Below, one piece after another: positions 4,921 to 28,991 of a stretch of DNA of 57,809 nt; position 1 is the first letter of the stretch, and each line of letters opens with the position of its first letter. The stretch covers positions 1 to 57,809 of the forward strand of contig NZ_SMLW01000672.1 of the NCBI RefSeq assembly GCF_009711405.1, read 5' to 3'. Under the pieces are notes generated by a model. It did not search any database. It was not told the origin of the DNA and saw nothing but the letters and a program-made list of their open reading frames with translations. The position numbers were made by a program, and so were the translations under genes. The stretch is from Fulvivirga kasyanovii. Its GTDB lineage: Bacteria; Bacteroidota; Bacteroidia; Cytophagales; Cyclobacteriaceae.

Positions 4921-6048
4921 TTACTCCACTATCACGTCTTCCTCGCCGGTGAATACTTTAGAGACCTTGTAAACCTTCACCAGATTCTGTTTACCCCTAA
5001 GCTCCACGTCGCCTATTTCCTGCACTTCAAACTCTCCATTAACAGGCAGTTGGGAAACCAGCGCATCAGATACCAATAGCTTAGCATTAAACTCATTGCA
5101 TTTATCCTCAATTCGCGAAGTGGTATTTAGCACATCACCGGTAAATATAATGTCCTTCTTAAAAGTACCTACCTCTCCGGTGGTAACTTCGCCACCATGC
5201 AAAGCAGCCTTAAATGTAGGCTTCACCCGATATTTTTCCATGTATTTATGCGCTCTGCGATTTATGATGCTTTCTATCTCAAAAAAGCAGCGAATACAAT
5301 TAGCGTTCTCCAAACCATCCTCAAGAGACCAGGTAATAACCACCTCATCACCAACATACTGGTAAATGTCGCCCTTATTTTCAATTACACCTTTTGTGAC
5401 ATCCTCAAAAAAGCGATTAAGTAACTTGAAGTATTTTTTATGTCCTAACTGCTCTGCAATAGTAGTTGATGATTTAAGATCCAGAAACATAAAGATCCGC
5501 TCCTCATTAATCGGGTTGTGGTATTTGCCTAAAAGCGTTTCCAGAAATACACCTCTTCCATATTTATCATTTACCTGCAATACCACTATAGTGGCCGTAG
5601 CTACTATTGTCCACACAATGAGGTTGAGCAAGAAGCCATAGCTGCTAACGAATTCTGTGAGGTTAAACCAAAGATCGCCATCAAAATATGATTCCCCTAC
5701 CAGAATGTAATAGTAAAACACAAATGCTATAGTACTTACCACTGCTATTATGACCAGGAAAGAGATGGTATTGATAATAATCACCATGCCCAGCGGCATC
5801 TTTCTAAGCCGGTCTTTCAAAAAGAAAATAATGAGCGAACCACCCCCTACACCGGCAATCAACAACGCAACCACATTGGTTATGAGTGCAGTTTCGAGAT
5901 CATAATCATTAAATTCGAAAGCCTCCTGAGACAACATGATCAGGTGGTTATAGTAAATGTTCAATATTCCGATAAGTATCCAGCCAATCGTAATAAAGAG
6001 AACCGTCCTGATCTTTATTTTTGTATTGTTTGAAAGTATGTTTTTCAT
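4921..6048 (-). CDS. Membrane-bound class III adenylate/guanylate cyclase
   Basis: 375 residues. Four hydrophobic segments span roughly residues 12-155, followed by a class III cyclase domain at about 185-345. Both metal-binding aspartates are present, in FMFLDLKSSTT and YQYVGDEVVITW, as are the Asn and Arg of the transition-state motif DVLNTTSRIEDKC. The protein should therefore be catalytically competent at the inner membrane. The residues that select ATP or GTP do not align cleanly with the mammalian Lys/Asp pair, so cAMP versus cGMP is left open. A paralogue with the same architecture lies at 10350-11441. No recognisable effector is adjacent. Confidence 0.88.
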   Translation of the reverse strand: MKNILSNNTKIKIRTVLFITIGWILIGILNIYYNHLIMLSQEAFEFNDYDLETALITNVVALLIAGVGGGSLIIFFLKDRLRKMPLGMVIIINTISFLVIIAVVSTIAFVFYYYILVGESYFDGDLWFNLTEFVSSYGFLLNLIVWTIVATATIVVLQVNDKYGRGVFLETLLGKYHNPINEERIFMFLDLKSSTTIAEQLGHKKYFKLLNRFFEDVTKGVIENKGDIYQYVGDEVVITWSLEDGLENANCIRCFFEIESIINRRAHKYMEKYRVKPTFKAALHGGEVTTGEVGTFKKDIIFTGDVLNTTSRIEDKCNEFNAKLLVSDALVSQLPVNGEFEVQEIGDVELRGKQNLVKVYKVSKVFTGEEDVIVE

Positions 6049-17353: not shown

Positions 17354-18286
17354 ATGATAGAAGTCCGCAACATAACAAAATCATACCATTCAACTCCTGT
17401 AGTTAGTAACTTATCATTTTCTGTTGCACCGGGTGAGGTATTGGTTTTATTGGGCCCCAGTGGAAGTGGTAAAACAACCACATTAAAGATCATCAACCGG
17501 TTAATAGAAAAAGATAGTGGGAAAATATTCATTGAATCGGAAGACACAGACAAACTGACTCCCTATGAGCTTAGAAGAAAGATAGGATATGTTATTCAAA
17601 GTATAGGGCTTTTCCCTCACTACACCATCGAGCAGAACATCTCCATTGTTCCGGAGCTTCTGGGGTGGAATAAAACCCGGATTCAAAACAGGGTAGACAG
17701 TCTTCTGGAAATGATGAACCTTCCTTCATCTGTTAAGTCACGAAAGCCACATGAACTTAGCGGCGGGCAACAGCAACGGGTAGGTATAGCGCGTGCCCTT
17801 GCCGGTGGCCCTTCATTGATACTTATGGACGAGCCCTTTGGTGCCCTTGACCCTATTACCCGGCAAGAGCTTCAAAAAGAATTTAAGCAACTGGAGGGAG
17901 CTATTAACAAAGCAATCATACTGGTGACCCATGACATCATTGAAGCCATGGTGCTTGGAGATAAAATCTGCCTGCTTGATGAGGGTAAGATTCAACAGAT
18001 CGGAACCCCAAAGGAGCTGCTTTTTCAGCCTGCGAATAAATTTGTGAAAGAGTTTTTCAGCCAACATAAATTACAGCTTGAGCTAAATGCAGTAACCCTA
18101 CAGGATCTCTCTGGATTTATAAGCCTTGAAGGTTTTGATCTTCCTGCTGATTTGCAACCTGAAGCCAGCCTGGCCGAATGCCTAATGTACACCGACAAAA
18201 AAGCATCACTTCAGTATAACAGCTTATTAAAGATCTATTTTAACCATAGAGAGGTGTTGATTAGTAAATTCAAAGAGAGTGTTTAA
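17354..18286 (+). CDS. Osmoprotectant-type ABC transporter ATP-binding protein
   Basis: 310 residues. Walker [10 protein letters not shown] lies at 34-42, the Q-loop is in [14 protein letters not shown], the signature is [11 protein letters not shown], Walker B is [13 protein letters not shown] and the switch histidine is in VTHD. The [14 protein letters not shown] segment is characteristic of the OpuCA/ProV-like quaternary-amine importers. The usual CBS pair is missing; the C-terminal 70 residues are a short unrelated extension. The natural partner permease/binding protein is at 27420-28991 on the same strand, with an oppositely oriented nine-gene block between. Confidence 0.9.
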
Positions 18287-18332
18287 TGAAGTTACAAATG
18301 TGAAGCACTAGTCTACCATAACATATAAGAAT

Positions 18333-18365
18333 GGAAGGTCGCTCAAAAATTTTTGAGAACCCTCC
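18333..18365. terminator. Bidirectional hairpin between convergent genes
   Basis: A perfect 16-bp palindrome (CTCAAAAATTTTTGAG, 18342-18357) is flanked by arms GGAAGGT and ACCCTCC that pair with one mismatch. It lies between the convergent ABC ATPase gene and the T9SS gene, and its A/T runs can act as a terminator tract in either direction. Confidence 0.5.
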
Positions 18366-18406
18366 ACCTCAACAAGGAATAGCTTTAATTTTACGGTACC
18401 TGCTCC

Positions 18407-20275
18407 TTACTCAAGCACGAGCTTAAATACCTTGTCTTTTCCATCAATATGAGTCCTGAGTATATATACTCCTTTGGGCTTACCGTCCAGATGGAAACTG
18501 ATTTTATTTTCAGACTGCACATACTCCACTTCTATCGCTCTGCCCATAGTGTCATATAGTTCTATCCCTCCTTTGGTGTCTCCCTTTGAAAGCAAAGTAA
18601 ATTGTCCTTTGCCCGGGTTAGGATAAAGCAATATGTCATTTTCGGCCCGGCCGGCTTCTATTTTAATCGTTTCCATATACCTTCCAGTGCCGTCAAAATC
18701 AGTCTGAGATAACCTATAGAAAACCGAACCAGCATTGCTTGCATCGTCAATGAAATCATAATTATGCTCCACCGAGGTTGTTCCATGACCATTTTTAAAG
18801 CCAATAACTTCCCAATCATTACCATCGAATGACTTCTCAATAGTGAAGAAGTCGTTGTTTAATTCGCTTCCGGTACCCCATTTAAGTACTACTTCCCCTG
18901 AGTTCACAAATGCTCCATTAAAGTATAAAAGAGACACAGGCAGCGGGTCTGAAGCTACCTCATCACTTATACCTTCACCATCGCTGCCAGAGGGTTGTTC
19001 GTCGGGTACTGAATTACACGGATCTGTACCGTTATTACAGCCGGAAGAGCCATTATTTGTGGATACCGATGTATTTCCAGGTTGAGCTACAGTAAACATA
19101 ACACGACCCTGACCTCCACCACCACCTGCACCGTGAATATCAGTAGTAATAGCTGAACCTCCGCTACCACCATTGGCAGATACTGCCAACGTACACCCGG
19201 CATCAATACTAAAATTGGAAACACTAAAAATAATTGTTCCCCCTGCCCCGGCACCTCCTGATCCATCATTGCCGGAATCATTGGCATCAATGCCATTAGC
19301 AGAAATAATACGCCCGCTACATGAGCCTAAGGTATTAACTTCATTGGCTTTGATCAATACAATCCCGCCTCCGTTAGCACCGGAAGAGCCAACGCTATTG
19401 TTTTGGTGGCCTCCTCCTCCGCCGCCACCCATAAATATGCGGCTGGAAGTTATATGTGAGCCTAAAGAAACTCCACCTTGTCCACTAACGGGGTTTGCGG
19501 AACAGTTCCAACCAGCTCCTCCTTCTCCGCCAGTTGTAACATTTCCACCACCACCGCCACCGCCATTATGACGAGCCCCTGCACCGCCACCATTGATTAT
19601 TTTTGCTCTTCCCACTTCATAATCAGTATTTGACACTTTATAAATGCCCTCTCCTTTCTTGCCAGCATATCCGGTATTACTGGTTATCCATGTATTGGTA
19701 AGGCAGTCATGAGTACCGCTGTTAACAGAAACTGAACCTCCTCTAAAGCCCTTTCCATCAACATTAATGTTATGGTTTAAAGTTAAAACACCACTAACCT
19801 GCAGTGCTATGACCCCACCAACATTTCCATTCCAGGTAAGTGCCGTCAGATCAGATGTTGTGGTATAGTCTCCGCCTCCTCCCAGATCAGGAAATGAGAT
19901 AATCTGTACAGAAGAGTTATTTCCTGTATGATATGAGTTTTTCAATGAGGTAGTAAGTGTAAGGGTTGAAGATGCCACGGAGGCTATAGTAGCCACTTCA
20001 TACAACCCTGCAGACTGAATGTTATCCAGTGTACCAAAATTACTATCATTGGAAGTATTAGACCCAATGACATCATCCTGCATCTGCATGATAATAACCT
20101 GTTCACCAGAGACAAAAGTATCATTGGTTTCATTCATATCAGAAAGTGTAAGCGTGGTTCCCGAAATGCCGGTAACTTTAGCATATGCATTTATAATGCT
20201 TTGAGCCTTAAGATTATTTACACAAAAAATCAAAAGTGCAAGTACGCTGAGGAAAGACCTAAACATGGATATCAA
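18407..20275 (-). CDS. Glycine-rich T9SS type A sorting-domain surface protein
   Basis: 622 residues with a signal peptide (MISMFRSFLSVLALLIFCVN, then NLKAQS). The central region has long glycine runs (GGGGGGGNVTTGGEGG and others) between beta-rich segments. A linker module containing LKWGTGSELNNDFFTIEKS follows, shared with the neighbouring gene, and then a C-terminal sorting domain (LLYPNPGKGQFTL through VYILRTHIDGK) recognised by the type IX system. The protein should be exported across the outer membrane and attached to the surface or released. It is the last gene of the minus-strand run, 14 bp after the preceding T9SS gene. No enzymatic motif is visible; an adhesive or matrix role is inferred. 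Confidence 0.88.
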   Translation of the reverse strand: MISMFRSFLSVLALLIFCVNNLKAQSIINAYAKVTGISGTTLTLSDMNETNDTFVSGEQVIIMQMQDDVIGSNTSNDSNFGTLDNIQSAGLYEVATIASVASSTLTLTTSLKNSYHTGNNSSVQIISFPDLGGGGDYTTTSDLTALTWNGNVGGVIALQVSGVLTLNHNINVDGKGFRGGSVSVNSGTHDCLTNTWITSNTGYAGKKGEGIYKVSNTDYEVGRAKIINGGGAGARHNGGGGGGGNVTTGGEGGAGWNCSANPVSGQGGVSLGSHITSSRIFMGGGGGGGHQNNSVGSSGANGGGIVLIKANEVNTLGSCSGRIISANGIDANDSGNDGSGGAGAGGTIIFSVSNFSIDAGCTLAVSANGGSGGSAITTDIHGAGGGGGQGRVMFTVAQPGNTSVSTNNGSSGCNNGTDPCNSVPDEQPSGSDGEGISDEVASDPLPVSLLYFNGAFVNSGEVVLKWGTGSELNNDFFTIEKSFDGNDWEVIGFKNGHGTTSVEHNYDFIDDASNAGSVFYRLSQTDFDGTGRYMETIKIEAGRAENDILLYPNPGKGQFTLLSKGDTKGGIELYDTMGRAIEVEYVQSENKISFHLDGKPKGVYILRTHIDGKDKVFKLVLE

Positions 20276-20289
20276 AAAATTATTTAACC

Positions 20290-21840
20290 TTACTTAACTA
20301 TTATCTTAACTTGTTTTTGCTGTTTGTCCGATTGGAAGTCGAGAATGTAAGCGCCCTCACTTAAACCAGATGTACTGACAACGGCTGGTTGCCCGAAGAA
20401 TACTCCTTCATTTAATACCTGACCGTTAATCGTTTGAATTTTCCAAGTTGCCCTTTCTTCACCTATTCCATACACGTAGATGAAGTCTTCCTGAGAAACC
20501 GGGTTTGGCATAATTCTAAATTCAGATGTTGCATGTCCCGGATCTATCTTAATCGTTTTTTGGTACGAGTAGCTGCCATCGAAATCTGTTTGCTTTAACC
20601 TGTAGTAAGATATCCCCTGAAGCTGTATCTCATCTTTCCATTGATACCCTGTTGCCATGTAAGAGGTTCCTGCACCATCTACCACACCTACCTTGGCGAA
20701 GGACTTGCCGTCAGTCGATTTCTCAATAGAAAAGTAATCATTGTTAAGCTCCGAAGCAGTTCTCCACTTTAATACCACATGGTTATTTACGAGTTGGTAT
20801 CCCATGTCAATAACGGTAACCGGCAAGGCTCCGCAGCCATTTCCACAACAACCATCAGAGCATGTGGCATTTATCCCATTATTATTATCTGTTATTGTTC
20901 CTCCTACCACAAGCGTTCCATCGGGAATATCAATTGAAGCACCATAATCATTCAGGAGATCATTAGTTACAGTCACAACGCCACCGCCATCAATATCCAT
21001 ATTGCTGGCAAAAGCATTGTTGAAATACCCTACATTTAGATTTGAACCATTCACGTTGATATAGCCCTCGTTTACGGGATTCCCATAGGTGTCATATCCA
21101 TTGTCAAAAACACCTCCTATGGTAAAGGTAGAATTGTTAACTATATCCAGTTGAGCCTGGAAGCTGTTGTTAAAATCGTTTGAGATGTTTACCGTACTGT
21201 TATCAACCATCAATTGCGAGGCACCTTCCGTGGTCAGGTCCCCATCAGAAACAATCAGACTTCCCTCATTTTGAACGGTGGTACTAGACCCACTATCGTT
21301 TTTATAATTACCTGAGCTTATAATCATGGTTGAATTATCAATGGTAAGCTCTGCAGAGTTTCCATTGACAAAATTTCCATTGGTAACTGTAAAGAGAGTT
21401 CCGTTTTCCAGGTTAAATATTGAGCCATACTCATTTTTGCTCTCACTTGTCCCTCCATTATTATCAACATTTACCGTCAAATCAGAAATTGTCAGCGATT
21501 TTTGGTATATGTTATTGTAGAACCTTCCAGCTACATTCAGGGTACCACCTCCTGATATCGTGTATGTGCCACCCGGCCACACCCCGGTCTCAAAATCTCC
21601 CGTTACAGTCACAATAACCCCAGAGTTTATCACCAGGGTGGCATCACTTGAAAATTTGAGGGCGCCGGTAATTGTAATATCTGAGCTTATAGTACATGTA
21701 CCTGAAATGGTCAGGTCACCTGATGTATAACCGCTCGTACACTGTGTGCTTCCTTCCTGATAACTCAGTAAAAAGAGGGACAAAAACATCACTTTAATTA
21801 CCAGAAAGGAATTTTCTTTCTTGATTTTCATATTTTTCAT
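20290..21840 (-). CDS. T9SS type A sorting-domain protein with beta-helix-like repeats
   Basis: 516 residues. The signal peptide is preceded by a Lys-rich stretch (MKNMKIKKENSFLVIKVMFL). Residues about 40-320 are repeated short beta rungs rich in Asn, Gly, Ser and Thr (NSTMIISSGNYKN, STVNISNDFNN, STFTIGGVFDNG), the appearance of a right-handed parallel beta-helix. A short Cys segment (CSDGCCGNGCG) precedes the shared module (LKWRTASELNNDYFSIEKS) and the T9SS sorting domain (FRIMPNPVSQEDFIYVYG). It is probably an elongated cell-surface or secreted protein. No glycan-cleaving residues can be assigned. Confidence 0.87.
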   Translation of the reverse strand: MKNMKIKKENSFLVIKVMFLSLFLLSYQEGSTQCTSGYTSGDLTISGTCTISSDITITGALKFSSDATLVINSGVIVTVTGDFETGVWPGGTYTISGGGTLNVAGRFYNNIYQKSLTISDLTVNVDNNGGTSESKNEYGSIFNLENGTLFTVTNGNFVNGNSAELTIDNSTMIISSGNYKNDSGSSTTVQNEGSLIVSDGDLTTEGASQLMVDNSTVNISNDFNNSFQAQLDIVNNSTFTIGGVFDNGYDTYGNPVNEGYINVNGSNLNVGYFNNAFASNMDIDGGGVVTVTNDLLNDYGASIDIPDGTLVVGGTITDNNNGINATCSDGCCGNGCGALPVTVIDMGYQLVNNHVVLKWRTASELNNDYFSIEKSTDGKSFAKVGVVDGAGTSYMATGYQWKDEIQLQGISYYRLKQTDFDGSYSYQKTIKIDPGHATSEFRIMPNPVSQEDFIYVYGIGEERATWKIQTINGQVLNEGVFFGQPAVVSTSGLSEGAYILDFQSDKQQKQVKIIVK

Positions 21841-21871
21841 TTATCTGATAAATTAATTTAGGTTGGGGTCA

Positions 21872-22234
21872 TCATTTTTGACATCTTCCATATTGGTTTC
21901 CTCCCCCTGGATTACCATCCTTAGCCAGTAGGATCAGGAGCCATGCTGCGCCTAGAAGAGGCACCAACCCGAGCAACAGCAACTGGCCACCCTCACCTAT
22001 ATCATGCAATCTTCGGACTCCAACTGCCATGGTGGGAACAAAAGCCACCACCATATATATGATTGAAAATAACCCAAAACCAGGTTCGATAAAGACTGTT
22101 CCCGCATTGACATCAGTAATCATGGCTAATATCAAAGCCAGCATATTGAAAAGCATGAACATCCAGAATTCCTTTCTCCTGGCTCTACCGTAAAATTTTG
22201 AGTACTTCTTAAAAACTGTTAAATACCAATACAT
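21872..22234 (-). CDS. DUF805 family inner-membrane protein
   Basis: 120 residues. The family hallmark is visible: an N-terminal FYGRARRKEFWMFMLFN motif before the first helix, then three further hydrophobic stretches with GVRRLHDIGEGG between. DUF805 proteins are small bacterial inner-membrane proteins of unknown function. It lies 33 bp after the small Cys protein gene and 31 bp before the T9SS gene, so it is inside the same transcription run. Confidence 0.85.
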   Translation of the reverse strand: MYWYLTVFKKYSKFYGRARRKEFWMFMLFNMLALILAMITDVNAGTVFIEPGFGLFSIIYMVVAFVPTMAVGVRRLHDIGEGGQLLLLGLVPLLGAAWLLILLAKDGNPGGGNQYGRCQK

Positions 22235-22267
22235 AGTCTGATTTTTATCTATTAATATTCTCTTAAA

Positions 22268-22510
22268 TTATTCTTGCCTACAACTACCATATTCGTTGTA
22301 TTCCTTCTGACTTTCACAAATTACATAACCGCACAATCGTATATGTGAATGAAAGTGTGTGTTACGGCTGGAATGGCTGACTCGCCTGCATTTATCAGGG
22401 CCATTTGGGTCTGTATTAACCTCCAACAGATGGAGGAGCAACTCTTCTGAAACACCGATTACAGGTAGCAGCAAGGAAGTTAAAACCAGTTTATCCGTTA
22501 TCTTTTCCAT
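22268..22510 (-). CDS. Small Cys-containing hypothetical protein
   Basis: 80 residues. The ATG begins one base after the TAA of the preceding gene, which supports translational coupling and hence a real gene. A short hydrophobic stretch (LVLTSLLLPVIGVS) near the N-terminus could be a signal segment. The remainder holds four cysteines (about residues 40, 60, 66, 77) and several histidines (SHSSRNTHFHSH). The LLEVNTDPNGPDKC region faintly recalls the NVEALA-type secreted peptides of Bacteroidota, but the match is too weak to assign. It could be a secreted peptide or a spurious frame. Confidence 0.5.
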   Translation of the reverse strand: MEKITDKLVLTSLLLPVIGVSEELLLHLLEVNTDPNGPDKCRRVSHSSRNTHFHSHIRLCGYVICESQKEYNEYGSCRQE

Positions 22511-22511
22511 T

Positions 22512-23441
22512 TTATACGCTCCTCTTATACATTACTGTACTATCCTCTTCTACAGCCAGCATGCGCTGTTTATGCTCAGCCTTCTCATGCGATTTCGATA
22601 TTTCCATTTCGAGTAGTGCTGAAAACTGCTTTATGATGTTATCTAATTCCAGGCTGTTGTTATAAGTGAGATCTACCACTTTGCGCAGATCTTCATCTTC
22701 TTTATAGGTTGGCTTCAACTTCATGATGTGAAGAAGCCCTTGAATTCTTGCTAATGGCGCCCTGGTTTTATGGGAGTTAAAGTAGGTGTACTCAATCAGC
22801 TTTTTGTTGAGGTTTTGGATGGTTTCTGTCCTGCTATCTACTAATCTTTCCAGATTTTTATTATAAGCCGCTATTTGATAATGGGCTTTTTCCAGTCCCT
22901 CATTGGCACGACACAAACGTGACTGCTCCGAATCATATTGATTTTTATAGGTCAGGAAAATTTGCAACAGGCTCATCAGACGCACAATTACTTCAACAAC
23001 GTTGACCAGTGGGTGGTCATTAACCCTGAGGTTATCAATAAGGTCTGCCCTAAAAACTTCAACGTAACTCAATAACAGAACCAGAATAATTAATACCCTA
23101 ATAAATATGTTTCTTTCCCTCCCGGTAAAAATTGTTGAGAACACTAGCAAAATTCCACAAAAATCTATAGCTGTAAGAGCGGACATACCTCCCTGCGATA
23201 GAAAACCAGTTGTAACGCATACGAGATAAATAAAGGCCAGGAGCCTTTTGAGAAACACAGAAAACCGAACAGTAATGAGCCAGTAACAGGCCATAAAAAT
23301 CAAGCATGTAAATATTCCTCCAACCACCAGATCAGGGTTATCACCTGCAATCAAATCATAGATCAAGTATATCAATACTATAACAATCGTATTGCGAACT
23401 GAATGAAGGAGTATTTTACGCTCTAGTAAATCGTTGTTCAA
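22512..23441 (-). CDS. Membrane protein with histidine-kinase phosphoacceptor domain but no ATPase domain
   Basis: 309 residues. Five or six hydrophobic segments fill residues 13-165, followed by a coiled coil (170-215). A HisKA/DHp-like helix follows with H-box FNSHKTRAPLARIQGLL (His224) and the second DHp helix up to about 285. This H-box is typical of Bacteroidota sensor kinases. The protein ends about 25 residues after the DHp hairpin, and no N, G1 or G2 box of an HATPase domain appears here or in the next frame. It therefore cannot autophosphorylate alone; it might be a phosphorelay acceptor, a phosphatase or a scaffold. Confidence 0.8.
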   Translation of the reverse strand: MNNDLLERKILLHSVRNTIVIVLIYLIYDLIAGDNPDLVVGGIFTCLIFMACYWLITVRFSVFLKRLLAFIYLVCVTTGFLSQGGMSALTAIDFCGILLVFSTIFTGRERNIFIRVLIILVLLLSYVEVFRADLIDNLRVNDHPLVNVVEVIVRLMSLLQIFLTYKNQYDSEQSRLCRANEGLEKAHYQIAAYNKNLERLVDSRTETIQNLNKKLIEYTYFNSHKTRAPLARIQGLLHIMKLKPTYKEDEDLRKVVDLTYNNSLELDNIIKQFSALLEMEISKSHEKAEHKQRMLAVEEDSTVMYKRSV

Positions 23442-23469
23442 AGGGTAGTACTATTAAATTAATAAGTAG

Positions 23470-23946
23470 CTAAAAGAGGCTAGCTTGCTCTTTGTTTCCG
23501 CTAGTGCCGACTTCCGTTCTATCTCTTATCTGACCCCCGGTTCCTGGTACAGATAATTTTTTTAACCAGTCTATGGCTATCTTCTCTTCCTCAAAATATT
23601 CAGTTACAACCAGGGTTTTATCACTCATTTGTGCGATCTCTGCCAAAGAAAAACTGGCAAAAATATCAGTAGGCGTTATAATCGCGCAATGCCTATATCC
23701 ATTAGCTATTGCTCTCTTTGCCCAGACTTTGTCCATCCATTCTATAAGTTCAGGGTGAATAGCCCCTTGCTTATTTGTATCTATTAATGCTTTTGTTGCT
23801 TCATAATGTATGATCGCACCCAACATTTGCTCGCAAGCTTCCCTGAACTCCCCATTTGTTGGAGGAATTAACCATTGAACTTTTATATAGCCCCAGGAAG
23901 GCTCATATGAGATCTTTACATAATCTGACTTAAAGTATAGTTCCAT
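23470..23946 (-). CDS. SpoIIAA/STAS-like protein (copy 1)
   Basis: 158 residues. An alpha/beta pattern of about 130 residues (VQWLIPPTNGEFREACEQML, ALIDTNKQGAIHPELIEWM, YRHCAIITPTDIF) is shared with the next gene upstream, and these look like tandem duplicates. The fold resembles SpoIIAA-like/STAS-type domains, which in other bacteria act as phospho-switch or lipid/nucleotide-sensing modules. A 28-residue polar tail is unique to this copy. The upstream paralogue ends only 7 bp before it. No classical anti-sigma-antagonist phosphoserine motif can be assigned. Confidence 0.75.
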   Translation of the reverse strand: MELYFKSDYVKISYEPSWGYIKVQWLIPPTNGEFREACEQMLGAIIHYEATKALIDTNKQGAIHPELIEWMDKVWAKRAIANGYRHCAIITPTDIFASFSLAEIAQMSDKTLVVTEYFEEEKIAIDWLKKLSVPGTGGQIRDRTEVGTSGNKEQASLF

Positions 23947-23953
23947 AAGTTAG

Positions 23954-24346
23954 TTATTGCTTTTTAATCCAGTCAACGGCATCCTCCATACCATCAAAAT
24001 TTCGGGATATTACCTTTTTGCTGACCGTATCCATGATTTCATCCACTGAAAGCTGGGTAAATACGTCGGTAGGTATTATAATAGCACCATGAGTATACCC
24101 TGCAGCTACCGCTCTTGATATCCAATCAGAGGTCATCCACTCTAGAAGGTATGGCGCCACTGTACCCTGCTCTCTGATATCTACCACTACTTTTCCTGTT
24201 TTAAAATGAGCTATGGCCTCAATCATTTGTTCACAGCCATGCTTAAACTCCAAATCAGTTGGGGGTACAAGCCACTGATAGATGATGATGCTGTTTGCAG
24301 AATTATAGGATATCTTTGCGAAATCCTTTTCAAAAAATATTTCCAT
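23954..24346 (-). CDS. SpoIIAA/STAS-like protein (copy 2)
   Basis: 130 residues, strongly similar to copy 1: YQWLVPPTDLEFKHGCEQMI against VQWLIPPTNGEFREACEQML, and AGYTHGAIIIPTDVFTQLS against NGYRHCAIITPTDIFASFS. Acidic/aromatic positions and the PTD turn are conserved. It is a single compact domain with no membrane segment. It lies 15 bp downstream of the third paralogue and 7 bp upstream of copy 1, so it is mid-operon. Confidence 0.77.
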   Translation of the reverse strand: MEIFFEKDFAKISYNSANSIIIYQWLVPPTDLEFKHGCEQMIEAIAHFKTGKVVVDIREQGTVAPYLLEWMTSDWISRAVAAGYTHGAIIIPTDVFTQLSVDEIMDTVSKKVISRNFDGMEDAVDWIKKQ

Positions 24347-24361
24347 AGTAACTTATTAACC

Positions 24362-24886
24362 TTACCCGATTGTTGAATTAATTGTAAACATTAACCTCTC
24401 CTTCGCCGATGCCATTATATTCTTTATGGATTGATATGACACAGGCTTTTTACTCTTACCCGCCATCCACAGCAAAGCATCCGATAGGCTGTAGGAATAA
24501 AATGCTACTAATGAAGCCGGTTGCAGGATTTGCGTATCTAATGCATTCTGTACACATTGCCCATTTGTTGCATTAATTGGTAGTACCAGAGCCAGTCTGG
24601 TGATTCCTGCAGCAGAAATGTTTTCGTGAAAATCCTTCTTTACATAGGGTGCCTTCATGCCTATGTTCATAAGGCCAAAATCAGCAATACAAGTCTTTAC
24701 CTTATTCCTTTCTATTTGCTTAAGAAATTCGCTTTGTATAATCTTAAATTCCTCTTGCAAAACAGGCCCTTTACAAATCAACAAAATGGAATTGATCTCC
24801 CGGAGCAAAAATCCAGACCCACTTTTGTCATCTGTCTCGAACTTAATGGCAAATAATTCCTTACTTATCATGCTTACCTTAATCAA
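24362..24886 (-). CDS. Divergent SpoIIAA/STAS-like protein (copy 3)
   Basis: 174 residues. Pairwise resemblance to copies 1 and 2 is low but the order of elements agrees: LLICKGPVLQEEFKIIQSEF, then CIADFGLMNIGMKAPYVKKD, then ISAAGITRLALVLPINATN. A C-terminal helical extension of about 45 residues is extra. It is the first gene after the GAF receptor (54-bp gap). Assignment to the same fold is by eye and less certain than for the other two. Confidence 0.6.
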   Translation of the reverse strand: MIKVSMISKELFAIKFETDDKSGSGFLLREINSILLICKGPVLQEEFKIIQSEFLKQIERNKVKTCIADFGLMNIGMKAPYVKKDFHENISAAGITRLALVLPINATNGQCVQNALDTQILQPASLVAFYSYSLSDALLWMAGKSKKPVSYQSIKNIMASAKERLMFTINSTIG

Positions 24887-24940
24887 ATTTCGAGTGTAGT
24901 ATCAGATCTACTCTACCCGCTATATCTCTGCACGGTGTTC

Positions 24941-27136
24941 TTAATTTTGATTTTGATTCATAGACTTAAGTCTTTTCACTTCCTCCTCGGCCGTTCTCAG
25001 TCTGGCAGTTAACTCCTCTGTTATTTTCCTTTGGACTTCAACCGATTTCAATGCATCAATTTTTCTTTGCCCTTCTACTTCTTCCTTTAAAGCTGTGAGC
25101 TCTGCCATTTTTTGATGCATTTCCTTTTCCTGAGCCTTCATAGCTTCTGCTTGCACCTTATTTTGCTTTTCCGACTCCCTGAGCTTATTAATCATTCTGG
25201 CCATGGATTGCTTCTGAGCCTCTGCCTGGGCATTGGCTCGTTCGAGTTCCATATTTTTCTTTTTAGCCTCTTCCTGAGTTTTTAACAATTCCTCCACACT
25301 CTGACGCATCATTTGCTCCTGGGCTTTTATCTGCTCGGCCTTCTCCTCATTTTCCATATCCTTTTGCTTAAGCTTCTCAAGCATTTTGCTCATGGTTTGC
25401 TTTTGAGCTTCAGCCTGGGCATTCGCACGCTCTAGCTCCACATTTCTTTTTTCAGCGGCTTCCTGGGTAGCAAGCAGCTCTTCTACGTTCTGACGCAACT
25501 CCTCAGACTTCTCCTGGCTTTCCTTCTCCCTCAGCCTAAGCTTTTCAAGTACTTTACCCAGGCTTTGCCTTTGCGCTTCTGCCTGAACATTCGCCCGCTC
25601 CAACTCAATATTTTTTCTTTCGGCAGCTTCCTGAGTAGCTTGTAATTCTTCCATATTCTGGCGTAGTTCCTCTTCAGACGCCCTCATTTCTTCGGCCTGC
25701 TGCTGGCTAAGCTCAAGTAGCTTTTGTGTTTGGGCATTAACTTTGGCATTGAATATGGCCGAGGCAATATTTTCGCTTACCTTGATGATAAACTCCCGTA
25801 CGTGTGACTGATAAGGTTCAAAGGTGGCCAACTCAAGAATACCGTAGACCTTATCATTTATCTTCAACGGCGAAATAAAAACACAGCCCGGTGTTGCCTC
25901 ACCTAATCCCGAGGTTATATGTACATAATTCTGTGGTATTTGGGTTATGAATATGGGATCCCCCTCTTGCCAGCACTCTCCGGTCAAACCCTGTCCCGGC
26001 CTAATTTCCTTCTCAACAAATCGTTTCTTATCCCAAGCGTAACAGGCAACCATTTTAAGGAATGGATCATCTGTATCCTCATCCTCAACAATAAACAGTG
26101 CTCCCTGATTAGAACTGGTATATTTTACAATTTCGCTTATGATGCTATCTCCTAAGGCTTTAAGGTCCGTTTGGCTGCGTATGATGTCAGCAAATCTGGC
26201 AAGGCCAGAAACCGCCCAATTCCTTTGCTTTTCCTCCACTGAACTTTGTTTAAGGTTCTCCCTCATCTCCAGTAAAGCTATACTCATATCATCACCTTCA
26301 CGCCTTAGCTTAAGGTCCTTGTTGTAATCTCCGTTTCCGATGGCAACAGCAAAGGAAGTCATCGCTTTCAGGTCATTGACCAGATTACCCAGGGCATTGG
26401 TCATTATTTCGTCTTGCCCAACTTCAAGATTTGCAGTTATCGGTTTGCCCTCACTGATCTCTACTATAGTATCCCTAAGTTGTGAATATGGTTTAAACAC
26501 CTTGCTGTTTAGCTGATAAAGGGAAAGCAGGCAACCGGCAAAAAATGTCAGGAGCAGAAGGGTTACCAAAACAACTAAAACATCGTCCGCACGTTCCTTA
26601 TGCGCTACAACTGAAGAGACCTTCCGCTCCTGTGCCTGAATCACGCCTTCAAGCATTTTCTTTATTTGAGAAACCTGTTTTTTTATTTTCTCCCGGACTT
26701 CACCGGCTGAAATCTGTGTTAATTGAGAATTTCCAAATTCATCTGCGCGCAAAAGTTTAGTTAACGCCTCCCTGGAAATGAACATAGCCTCAAATGCTGA
26801 CAGAATTTTCTCCAATTTCTCATCCCTGTCTGAATACGCTGTAATGTGATTACTGTAATTTTTTTTAAGTGACCTATACTTAGCTACCAGGGCATGGTGT
26901 GCAAGTTCTGTATCCTGAGATTCAAATAACAAAGCTTCAAACTCGCCCAAAAACAAAAGCTCGGGCACATGTACTTCGTGAATTTCACGATCCAGTCTTT
27001 TGATATATTTATGTTGAATATGAGCAGCAAAAAATATTACCAGAGTTGCTACTATTAGCAAAGCATAAGTAATGGCAAATTTCCCCAATAAGTTGACCTT
27101 CAATTTTCTCATGTCATTTTGTATATTGACTTCCAT
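24941..27136 (-). CDS. HAMP-GAF transmembrane receptor with repeated coiled-coil output
   Basis: 731 residues. TM1 is at about 17-39, a helical periplasmic sensor of about 145 residues follows, TM2 is at 186-208, then a HAMP-like linker and a GAF domain (about 315-470, ending VYGILELATFEPY). The last 260 residues are a long coiled coil built from three near-repeats of about 50 residues, each carrying a version of EELLATQEAAEKRN and ERANAQAEAQKQ. No kinase, cyclase, GGDEF or chemoreceptor hairpin is present, so output must go through partner proteins. It is the first gene of the nine-gene minus-strand run. An alternative start is Met9. Confidence 0.87.
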   Translation of the reverse strand: MEVNIQNDMRKLKVNLLGKFAITYALLIVATLVIFFAAHIQHKYIKRLDREIHEVHVPELLFLGEFEALLFESQDTELAHHALVAKYRSLKKNYSNHITAYSDRDEKLEKILSAFEAMFISREALTKLLRADEFGNSQLTQISAGEVREKIKKQVSQIKKMLEGVIQAQERKVSSVVAHKERADDVLVVLVTLLLLTFFAGCLLSLYQLNSKVFKPYSQLRDTIVEISEGKPITANLEVGQDEIMTNALGNLVNDLKAMTSFAVAIGNGDYNKDLKLRREGDDMSIALLEMRENLKQSSVEEKQRNWAVSGLARFADIIRSQTDLKALGDSIISEIVKYTSSNQGALFIVEDEDTDDPFLKMVACYAWDKKRFVEKEIRPGQGLTGECWQEGDPIFITQIPQNYVHITSGLGEATPGCVFISPLKINDKVYGILELATFEPYQSHVREFIIKVSENIASAIFNAKVNAQTQKLLELSQQQAEEMRASEEELRQNMEELQATQEAAERKNIELERANVQAEAQRQSLGKVLEKLRLREKESQEKSEELRQNVEELLATQEAAEKRNVELERANAQAEAQKQTMSKMLEKLKQKDMENEEKAEQIKAQEQMMRQSVEELLKTQEEAKKKNMELERANAQAEAQKQSMARMINKLRESEKQNKVQAEAMKAQEKEMHQKMAELTALKEEVEGQRKIDALKSVEVQRKITEELTARLRTAEEEVKRLKSMNQNQN

Positions 27137-27419: not shown

Positions 27420-28991
27420 ATGATGCAAATTAACCGATTCATATCCTTTATTGACTCTCATCGGGAAGAGCTGCTGAATCAAATCACCGAGCATCTTTGG
27501 CTAACTTTAATTTCATTGGCTATAGCCTCCACTATTGGTTTGTCACTTGGCCTTTTGATTAGTAAAAACAAGCGGCTTTCTTCTCCTGTAATTGGTTTTG
27601 TTAATGCTATTCAAACCGTACCCAGCGTGGCTTTGCTAGGATTTCTTCTGCCATTTTTAGGCATTGGTGTCATTCCGGCCATTGTAGCCCTCTTTTTATA
27701 TGCACTTCTACCCATAGTCAGGAATACATACGCAGGGATTACCGAAATTGATCCAGCCATTAGGGAAGCAGCCAAAGGTATGGGCATGTCACCACTGCAA
27801 GTACTGATAAAAGTCGAGATACCACTGGCTATGCCTGTACTTTTTGCAGGTATTCGTACCGCTTTTGTCATTAACGTAGGCATAGCTACTTTATGTGCCT
27901 TAATAGCTGCAGGAGGACTAGGTGAATTCATTTTTAGGGGTCTAAGTACCAATAATCCATACATGATACTGGCAGGTGCCATACCTGCAGCCTTAATGGC
28001 TCTTATTTTTGATGGGTTGATGGGTTATATACAAAGGCATGTATATCTGATGATTAAGCCCATACTCTTCACTGCAGTTGCCGGTTTAATATTTATCGCC
28101 TGGTACAGCATCAACAAACAAGTGAACCATAAACAATTTGTCGCTGGCTTTCCATCCGAATTTATCGAACGAGGCGATGGGTATGTAGGCCTAAAGGAGA
28201 CATATAACCTTGACCTGGAGGTTAAAGAAATGGAAATAGGCCTGATGTACCAGGCGGTCAAAAACGAGCATGTAGATGTAATCAGTGGTTTTTCTACCGA
28301 TGGAAGGATAGAAGCTTTCAATCTTTATAAACTTACAGATGACAAAAACTATTTCCCGCCGTACCATGCCGCTCCTATCATTAGACAGAAAACACTTAGT
28401 AAATACCCGCAAATAGCTGTCGCGCTAGATGAGTTAAAAAATTCAATTTCTGATGAGGAAATGGCACGTATGAATTATCTGGTAGATGAAAAAGGGGAGG
28501 ATATCGAAGAGGTTGCTTTAAACTTTTTAAAAGACAAAGGCTTCCAAGTTGATGTTTCTCTTGCAGGAAATCCAGATGTACTTATCGGTTCAAAGAATTT
28601 TACTGAAAGTTATATCCTCGCCCATATTTTCAAAATTATCATAGAAAATAAAACGGGCCTCATTGTAGACTTAAAGCTTGGGTTTGGAGGGACCAAACTA
28701 CTCTTCGATGCACTGAATGCAGGAGAGGTAGACCTTTATCCTGAATATACAGGCACAGGTTTGCTGGTAATTCTTAAACCGGAAAAAAAGGACCAGATTG
28801 CCTATGAAAAAGATGAAGTATATGATTTTGTAAGCCGTGAATTCGAAAAAAAGTATGGTATTATTTGGCTGGCACCTCTTGGTTTCAACAATACTTTCGC
28901 ATTAATGATGAGGAAAGACCAGGCTGAAAACCTGAACATCCGCTCCATCAGTGATCTGGCCAGGGTCGACAAGAGTAAAGAAACCGACTAA
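27420..28991 (+). CDS. Osmoprotectant ABC transporter permease fused to a lobe-swapped substrate-binding domain
   Basis: 523 residues. Residues 1-215 are an OpuC-type permease (six helices; QTVPSVALLGFLLPF and the EAAKGMGMSPLQVL coupling loop). After one more helix comes an OpuC/ProX-like glycine-betaine/choline binding domain in unusual order. The block normally second (FVAGFPSEFIERGDGYVGL, DVISGFSTDGRIEAF, FFPPYHAAPI-type) precedes the block normally first (IGSKNFTESYILAHIF, DLYPEYTGTGL, GFNNTFALMM). The chain ends right after SISDLARVDKSK, where a canonical protein would continue into the other lobe. The frame is uninterrupted, so this is a permutation, not a broken gene. Its ATPase is 9 kb upstream. 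Confidence 0.9.
   Translation: MMQINRFISFIDSHREELLNQITEHLWLTLISLAIASTIGLSLGLLISKNKRLSSPVIGFVNAIQTVPSVALLGFLLPFLGIGVIPAIVALFLYALLPIVRNTYAGITEIDPAIREAAKGMGMSPLQVLIKVEIPLAMPVLFAGIRTAFVINVGIATLCALIAAGGLGEFIFRGLSTNNPYMILAGAIPAALMALIFDGLMGYIQRHVYLMIKPILFTAVAGLIFIAWYSINKQVNHKQFVAGFPSEFIERGDGYVGLKETYNLDLEVKEMEIGLMYQAVKNEHVDVISGFSTDGRIEAFNLYKLTDDKNYFPPYHAAPIIRQKTLSKYPQIAVALDELKNSISDEEMARMNYLVDEKGEDIEEVALNFLKDKGFQVDVSLAGNPDVLIGSKNFTESYILAHIFKIIIENKTGLIVDLKLGFGGTKLLFDALNAGEVDLYPEYTGTGLLVILKPEKKDQIAYEKDEVYDFVSREFEKKYGIIWLAPLGFNNTFALMMRKDQAENLNIRSISDLARVDKSKETD

Follow-up and report, generated by a model that had tools for sequence, protein, structure and literature searches.

An inserted block of putative signalling and surface-protein genes in Fulvivirga and its DHp-type protein without a kinase ATPase domain

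Introduction

As far as the accessible parts of the reports on the phosphotransferases ChpT (PMC3433190) and Spo0B (PMC11210211) describe them, these proteins use a histidine of the dimerisation and histidine phosphotransfer (DHp) type without kinase activity; and in split histidine kinases, according to the portion of the source available to us (PMC3591291), the parts of a kinase lie on separate chains. In the stressosome and in partner switching (RsbR/RsbS/RsbT, SpoIIAA/AB), a sensor and several proteins with the STAS fold are encoded together. Two Shewanella proteins of the DUF3478 fold have been proposed, on the basis of crystal structures, to associate with the membrane and to carry nonpolar molecules (PMC2954212). 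Here we describe a block of eight genes from Fulvivirga kasyanovii that recalls each of these systems: it encodes a GAF receptor, three STAS-like proteins, a membrane DHp protein that lacks an ATPase, a DUF805 protein and two surface proteins of the type IX secretion system (T9SS), and lies between two genes of an ATP-binding cassette (ABC) transporter. The stretch analysed (57,809 nucleotides, "the window") is contig C260 of the 7.17-Mb genome. The families in the block are known or are relatives of known ones; what is notable is their combination, and the class of ATPase-less DHp proteins to which one of them belongs.

Results

An eight-gene block inserted in an ABC transporter operon

In three Fulvivirga genomes, the block sits at the junction of the ATPase and permease genes of a betaine-type ABC operon, where it has been retained by selection. 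The left flank in the window is a ProV-like ABC ATPase gene (17,354-18,286, plus strand), and the right flank encodes an ABC permease fused to a substrate-binding domain (27,420-28,991, plus strand); the block itself is on the opposite strand. The ATPase matches TIGR01186 (E = 9.3e-88), and the permease matches OsmF (1.1e-38) and ProW (4.1e-27); these NCBIfam matches, all below their cut-offs, place the two genes near ProV, ProW and OsmF. The preliminary description of this locus had considered the block to be interposed in a transporter locus, and comparison within the genus bears this out. Among 15 Fulvivirga genomes (including its own), 11 have the permease at E ≤ 1e-60, three of them with the block and eight without it; in all eight of the latter the ATPase and permease open reading frames (ORFs) are same-strand neighbours that overlap, by 4-14 bases (74 in L096, under the first-start rule). 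The other four genomes contain neither the permease at this limit nor a DHp protein of more than 40% identity. In the three genomes with the block, the two ABC genes are 9133, 8752, and 8914 bp apart, and both are still open (about 310 and 525 aa). Since adjacency is the commoner state, a single insertion in the common ancestor of the three genomes is the simplest history on grounds of parsimony.

The condition named beforehand as the one that would overturn the grouping, namely that the genes are not conserved together, was checked in 145 genomes: the eight genes are co-located and in order in all three genomes that have orthologues of the DHp protein and STAS1. The two relatives, L061 (genome G014, on one contig) and L062 (G008, Fulvivirga marina 29W222, of the same genus), share the full set of eight, with order and strand unchanged, between the same ABC genes; beyond the permease their neighbours are alike, while those beyond the ATPase differ between L061 and L062. 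Identities to the window proteins (L061 and L062, respectively) are 65 and 67% for the receptor, 70 and 68% for STAS1, 78 and 81% for STAS2, 68 and 57% for STAS3, 77 and 72% for the DHp protein, 78 and 73% for DUF805, 86 and 58% for the T9SS protein T9b, and 81 and 72% for its companion T9a. The ratio of nonsynonymous to synonymous substitution rates (dN/dS) ranges from 0.06 to 0.17 across the 14 comparisons, out of 16, that could be evaluated; dS was not computable for the other two (STAS1 and STAS3 of G008) and exceeds 1 in many, so the ratios are rough. These values indicate that the genes are under purifying selection, and the shared order shows that they have stayed together. The DHp protein is found at E ≤ 1e-15 in 11 of the 145 relatives, exceeding 40% identity only in the three cassette copies, and STAS1 at E ≤ 0.01 in four, the fourth (outside the cassette genomes) being weak (E = 0.006). 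A scan with the DHp alignment over contigs of 84,980 species returned a single locus, that of F. marina; the reach of the scan's two peptide patterns is limited to close relatives, and entries for the genome of the window itself were possibly excluded. No DHp match at E ≤ 1e-5 was found in 72,556 plasmid records, and no paper on this block was among the open-licence PMC matches listed.

On re-checking, the nine consecutive minus-strand ORFs initially reported, with gaps of 54, 15, 7, 28, 1, 33, 31, and 14 bp, proved exact in coordinates and strand; two gene calls were revised. The start of STAS1 is better placed at the ATG at 24,871 (MISKEL, as in both orthologues), which makes the first gap 69 bp. 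The 80-aa ORF at 22,268-22,510 (minus strand), initially listed as a small Cys protein, was dropped, leaving eight genes: neither relative has a counterpart of it, their DHp and DUF805 genes being 78 and 75 bp apart as against 277 bp in the window, and the spacer that contains it is single-copy in its own genome, so that it is most likely a chance ORF rather than a gene. The spacer (22,235-22,511) exceeds its equivalents in the two relatives by about 200 bp. In none of the nine ORFs did Pfam or NCBIfam detect a kinase ATPase, cyclase or DNA-binding domain, in agreement with the statement that no member is a complete kinase, cyclase or transcription factor.

A DHp protein without ATPase and its relatives across the phylum

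The DHp-only protein (22,512-23,441, minus strand; 309 aa) was recognised from a sub-threshold HisKA match, hydropathy, a survey of tail lengths and a tree. It was first described as a membrane DHp protein without ATPase, and this holds: about six hydrophobic segments are followed by a coil and by the H-box SHKTRAPLARI at His224, only 85 aa remain after the histidine, and there is no HATPase match in Pfam. The HisKA match (2.5e-4) has 21.5 bits where the cut-off is 26.9, and the L062 orthologue has none at E ≤ 0.01; in the motif N-x-H-x-x-R-x-P, the N, H, R, and P are invariant in all 11 aligned members (alignment A5).

We searched 395 genomes of the phylum with a profile of the eleven DHp regions (E ≤ 1e-14), which matched 64 of them, ATPase-bearing and ATPase-less proteins being mixed, and gave 30 loci. 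The survey comprised 49 distinct proteins with a profile match and an H..[RK].P box; it is biased, since only ATPase-less members went into the profile, and matches lacking the box were dropped uncounted. The chains end either 51-85 aa (29 proteins, including the three cassette copies) or 204-231 aa (20 proteins) after the histidine, with none between. HATPase_c was found by Pfam in 20 of 20 long proteins and in none of the 29 short ones (E ≤ 0.01). The residue after the histidine helps autophosphorylation; it is acidic in 17 of the 20 long proteins (D17, N3) as against three of the 29 short ones (K9, V6, Q6, E3, L2, H1, N1, I1). A Fisher test (p = 1.5e-7) treats related proteins as independent, which the tree shows they are not, and we do not count its value as proof. 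HisKA is matched at E ≤ 0.01 by 22 of the 29 short proteins. In the tree the short class forms one group, explained by one change in 94% of bootstrap trees; its support (92/89) does not reach the tool's star limit, and the tool warns of few columns. The class extends from the genus itself to other families of the phylum.

The heads of the short proteins vary. Among the 26 from outside the cassette, ten have TPR repeats, five a receiver and PAS (L139, L140, L143, L145, L156), two GAF (L056, L129), and two PAS (L147, L149); in four the sole match is to HisKA or, below threshold, to a membrane sensor (L040, L049, L050, L051), and three have no Pfam match at E ≤ 0.01 (L052, L054, L133). The five receiver-PAS-DHp proteins without ATPase span several Bacteroidota families. 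Because the histidine is conserved and receivers are fused in front of it, the DHp protein most likely serves as a node for phosphotransfer rather than as a kinase; the loss of the residue that helps autophosphorylation suggests that kinase activity was lost. Among the open-licence PMC matches listed, nothing concerned ATPase-less DHp proteins in Bacteroidota.

The GAF receptor

The receptor (24,941-27,136, minus strand; 731 aa) was delimited from Pfam, hydropathy, repeat spacing, and its orthologues. It had been called a HAMP-GAF receptor; the GAF domain is confirmed (Pfam GAF_2, 3.9e-14; residues 323-461), whereas HAMP is not detected by Pfam, the protein having a HAMP-like stretch only (HAMP is detected in its paralogues L030 and L037). 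Hydropathy predicts two transmembrane segments, at about residues 20-38 and 186-204, bracketing a periplasmic region of about 147 aa. After the GAF domain come an RQNMEE motif and a long heptad-phased coil, and no enzymatic output was found in the protein. The ELERA...QAEAQ repeats of the coil start 56 and 63 residues apart, i.e., 8 and 9 heptads, and the G014 receptor is 56 residues shorter in this part; differences in length keep the heptad phase. The parts of the receptor are conserved to different degrees: compared with the two orthologues, residues 471-507 just after the GAF domain are 97 and 95% identical, the GAF domain itself 83 and 78%, the final 41 residues 78 and 71%, the coil repeats 63 and 64%, and the stretch that the two segments bracket 63 and 55%. 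The most conserved stretch contains the motif RQNMEEL.ATQE. The genome has 12 matches to GAF paralogues, of which nine were fetched as loci (L030-L038), and in all nine RQN(M/A)EE comes just behind the GAF domain, within similar flanking sequence, whatever follows; the motif may be a common docking site. An output-less receptor is not unique to the block, since paralogues L033 and L036 also stop short, 36-37 residues after the start of the motif.

The STAS-like proteins

The statement that three SpoIIAA/STAS-like proteins are encoded stood to different degrees for its three members. STAS3 (23,470-23,946, minus strand; 158 aa), which we classify as SpoIIAA-like from Pfam and orthologues, just meets PF11964 (25.1 bits, cut-off 25.0); no match to this family at E ≤ 1 in Pfam was found for STAS1 or STAS2, and 13 of the 27 aligned STAS members match it at E ≤ 0.1. 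STAS2 (23,954-24,346, minus strand; 130 aa; orthologues in both relatives) is placed by model only: its AlphaFold2 (AF2) model is of high confidence (pLDDT 89.0, pTM 0.82), and the best Foldseek match is RsbS (6jhk_B; TM-scores 0.68/0.75, E = 1.3e-3, with none at E ≤ 0.001), followed by the DUF3478 protein 2q3l and further STAS domains, which points to a STAS fold. A search of solved structures with STAS2 and with the STAS profile as queries gave nothing credible. For STAS1 (24,362-24,871, minus strand; 169 aa from the conserved ATG), the AF2 model is unreliable (pLDDT 33), and alignment with hhalign to the STAS alignment (probability 89, E = 2.1e-6, 111 columns) identifies it as a remote STAS relative.

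Across the 27 aligned members W70 never varies, and 22 of them carry an acidic residue at position 66. We take the phosphoserine site of SpoIIAA and RsbS to be at the start of helix 2; no conserved phosphoserine was seen there, Ser or Thr occurring in at most four of the 27 sequences at any of positions 61-70. Neither a Ser/Thr kinase nor a PP2C phosphatase was found in the block by Pfam. Because of the lack of a conserved Ser/Thr and the membrane association proposed for the Shewanella proteins, we favour the STAS proteins acting as phosphorylation-independent adaptors, possibly at the membrane, by analogy with those proteins.

STAS3 has 23 matches at E ≤ 1 in the genome: two in the window, 14 on contig C452, and seven elsewhere. 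The 14 on C452 (L021, 3997-12,692) belong to a tandem STAS/SpoIIAA-like array, in which 13 open ORFs of 142-170 aa align with the family (4922-5359 is outside the 14); the array adjoins TonB-receptor-like and YfiR-like genes, both below NCBIfam cut-offs, and several pieces of its counterpart in G014 (L063) are in short frames. We also considered a general linkage of GAF and STAS genes and rejected it: a GAF paralogue (E ≤ 1e-5) occurs on one of the seven STAS contigs outside the window and C452. On this contig (C427) the GAF gene is 1.6 kb from the STAS gene and on the other strand, and likewise in G014 (L122). Around the STAS genes in stretches from G092, G121, and G003, blastp found no cassette-like neighbour.

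Surface genes, DUF805 and transcription signals

The remaining three genes of the block, all on the minus strand, encode a small DUF805 membrane protein (21,872-22,234; 120 aa; PF05656, 8.6e-27, and orthologues) and the putative T9SS cargo proteins T9b (20,290-21,840; 516 aa) and T9a (18,407-20,275; 622 aa). The naming of the DUF805 protein and of two T9SS surface proteins held up, both of the latter matching the sorting domain TIGR04183 above its cut-off of 23 bits (T9b, 31.0 bits, 1.9e-7; T9a, 36.8 bits, 2.9e-9). The Gly-rich body of T9a resembles the N-terminal domain of AgmC (NF047640, 205 bits, below the cut-off of 275); no AgmC paper was among the open-licence PMC matches. Long homologues of T9a occur in other genera as well as in the congener G005; when the remaining ORFs of all eight fetched stretches with such a homologue were compared by blastp with the window proteins, none was matched best by a cassette signalling gene, DUF805 or T9b. 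T9b has a paralogue (52-54% identity) at another locus shared by all three cassette genomes (L118-L120), which makes a duplication within this lineage the probable origin of one copy. The surroundings of the paralogue at L118, L119, and L120 include large ORFs (about 1290 aa) and shorter ones that look pectinesterase-like by eye from their first residues.

On the strand of the block, T9a is followed by a strong hairpin (18,287-18,406, minus strand; -35.2 kcal/mol, z = -3.5, with none of 200 shuffles as low), a candidate transcript end from RNA folding; the plus strand of the same stretch gives z = -0.26, and a simple terminator scan did not flag the hairpin. Promoter scans in the window did no better than chance. 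The sigma-70 scan found 20 sites (22.9 expected), and six terminator-like sites were found (7.8 expected). TAnnTTTG is a Bacteroidota-type promoter motif; it occurs three times in the window (3.9 expected), and six and seven times in the relatives (3.5 and 4.4 expected), in no case between genes.

Discussion

A possible signalling circuit and its alternatives

Tentatively, and at somewhat less than an even chance, we read the inserted block as a signalling circuit in which the receptor, the STAS adaptors and the DHp node tune the two T9SS proteins. The two-transmembrane receptor would sense a periplasmic or GAF-bound cue and pass it along its heptad-phased cytoplasmic coil; the STAS-fold proteins, as adaptors that work without phosphorylation, would bind to the receptor or to the membrane; and the six-transmembrane DHp-only protein would be a sensor-gated histidine phosphotransfer node, whose phosphoryl group would come from a kinase or receiver encoded elsewhere, coupling the patch to the two-component network. 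The net effect would be to adjust how much of the two T9SS proteins encoded alongside is made or exposed. The link between signalling and surface genes is drawn from gene order, and a closed sensor-to-surface circuit is plausible and unproven. That the circuit is self-contained, as the preliminary description suggested it could be, is not supported: the block has no phosphodonor, receiver or transcription output, and its DHp protein has no ATPase. A wider proposal, possible although we doubt it more than we believe it, is that the ATPase-less DHp proteins are an undescribed Bacteroidota-wide family of single origin, sensor-gated phosphotransfer nodes with interchangeable heads (six-transmembrane, TPR, GAF, PAS, receiver-PAS), and that in Fulvivirga one of them was combined with a GAF receptor, three adaptors of the STAS type and a pair of T9SS cargos into an inserted module leading from sensor to surface.

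Several observations weigh against the circuit. The block contains no partner (kinase, receiver or regulator) for its DHp protein, and HisKA reaches the Pfam cut-off in only six of the 29 short DHp proteins, none of them from a cassette. The gap between the DHp and DUF805 genes is the widest within the block in the window (277 bp, not counting the small ORF) and ranks second in the relatives (78 bp after one of 83 bp in L061, 75 bp after one of 141 bp in L062); the surface genes may therefore have their own promoter. Genes like T9a, T9b, the STAS genes and the DHp-only gene occur apart from the rest in other fetched stretches, and three genomes of one genus may represent one evolutionary event. 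The same wide gap, the separate occurrences and the restriction to three genomes of one genus would also be expected if two or more co-located units (receptor, STAS1-3, and DHp; DUF805, T9b, and T9a) had arrived together or successively and persisted by descent with no functional link, which we regard as a serious possibility, if a rather doubtful one. The order of the genes argues otherwise, being the same, with mostly small gaps, in three species at 57-86% protein identity, and being kept while the neighbours on the far side of the ABC ATPase are not the same in L061 as in L062.

The biochemical roles assigned in the circuit have rivals of their own. A role of the DHp-only protein as a decoy, or as a partner in heterodimers, that titrates a complete histidine kinase rather than transferring phosphoryl groups would fit the lysine after its histidine and the absent ATPase; it is unlikely given the invariant His, Arg, and Pro of the H-box in all 11 aligned members and the receivers fused in front in five of the 26 non-cassette proteins. 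Very improbable, in our judgement, is a partner-switching module of the RsbR/RsbS or SpoIIAA kind, with STAS proteins switched by Ser/Thr phosphorylation: the fold of STAS2 is matched best by RsbS, and the GAF paralogue L037 of the same genome ends in a SpoIIE phosphatase, but the block itself has neither a switch kinase nor SpoIIE, and no conserved Ser/Thr lies near the start of helix 2 in the 27 STAS sequences.

With the present data, what began as the impression of a single genome becomes a testable unit, with empty sites, the versions of three species, and named residues and ends. If the DHp-only proteins are phosphotransfer nodes, they would form a layer of two-component signalling in Bacteroidota that a census requiring an ATPase would miss, and the residue beside the histidine would help to predict which DHp proteins are capable of autophosphorylation.

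Comparison with described systems

In the parts of the work on split histidine kinases available to us, separate chains make up a kinase; the block resembles them in carrying a kinase part on a chain of its own, and differs in having no ATPase-only partner and in that the residue beside the histidine is usually non-acidic in the short class. It shares with the stressosome and partner-switching systems the STAS fold and the joint encoding of a sensor with several STAS proteins, but its receptor has no detected STAS domain, and it lacks a switch kinase, a phosphatase, and a conserved phosphoserine. With the SpoIIAA-like/DUF3478 proteins (PF11964; PDB 2ook, 2q3l), STAS2 has the fold and STAS3 the profile in common; here, three divergent copies stand in a row beside a GAF receptor, STAS1 being only remotely related. 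The GAF receptors of the same genome (L030-L038) have the GAF domain and the RQN(M/A)EE coil motif of the cassette receptor, which differs from them in a coil of about 240 aa beyond the motif, whereas L030 and L031 continue to PAS, and L037 to PAS and SpoIIE. Finally, like ChpT and Spo0B, the DHp-only protein would use a DHp-type histidine without kinase activity; compared with these two, as the accessible parts of their reports present them, the proteins described here are membrane-bound or fused to TPR, PAS, GAF or receiver-PAS heads, and end 51-85 aa after the histidine.

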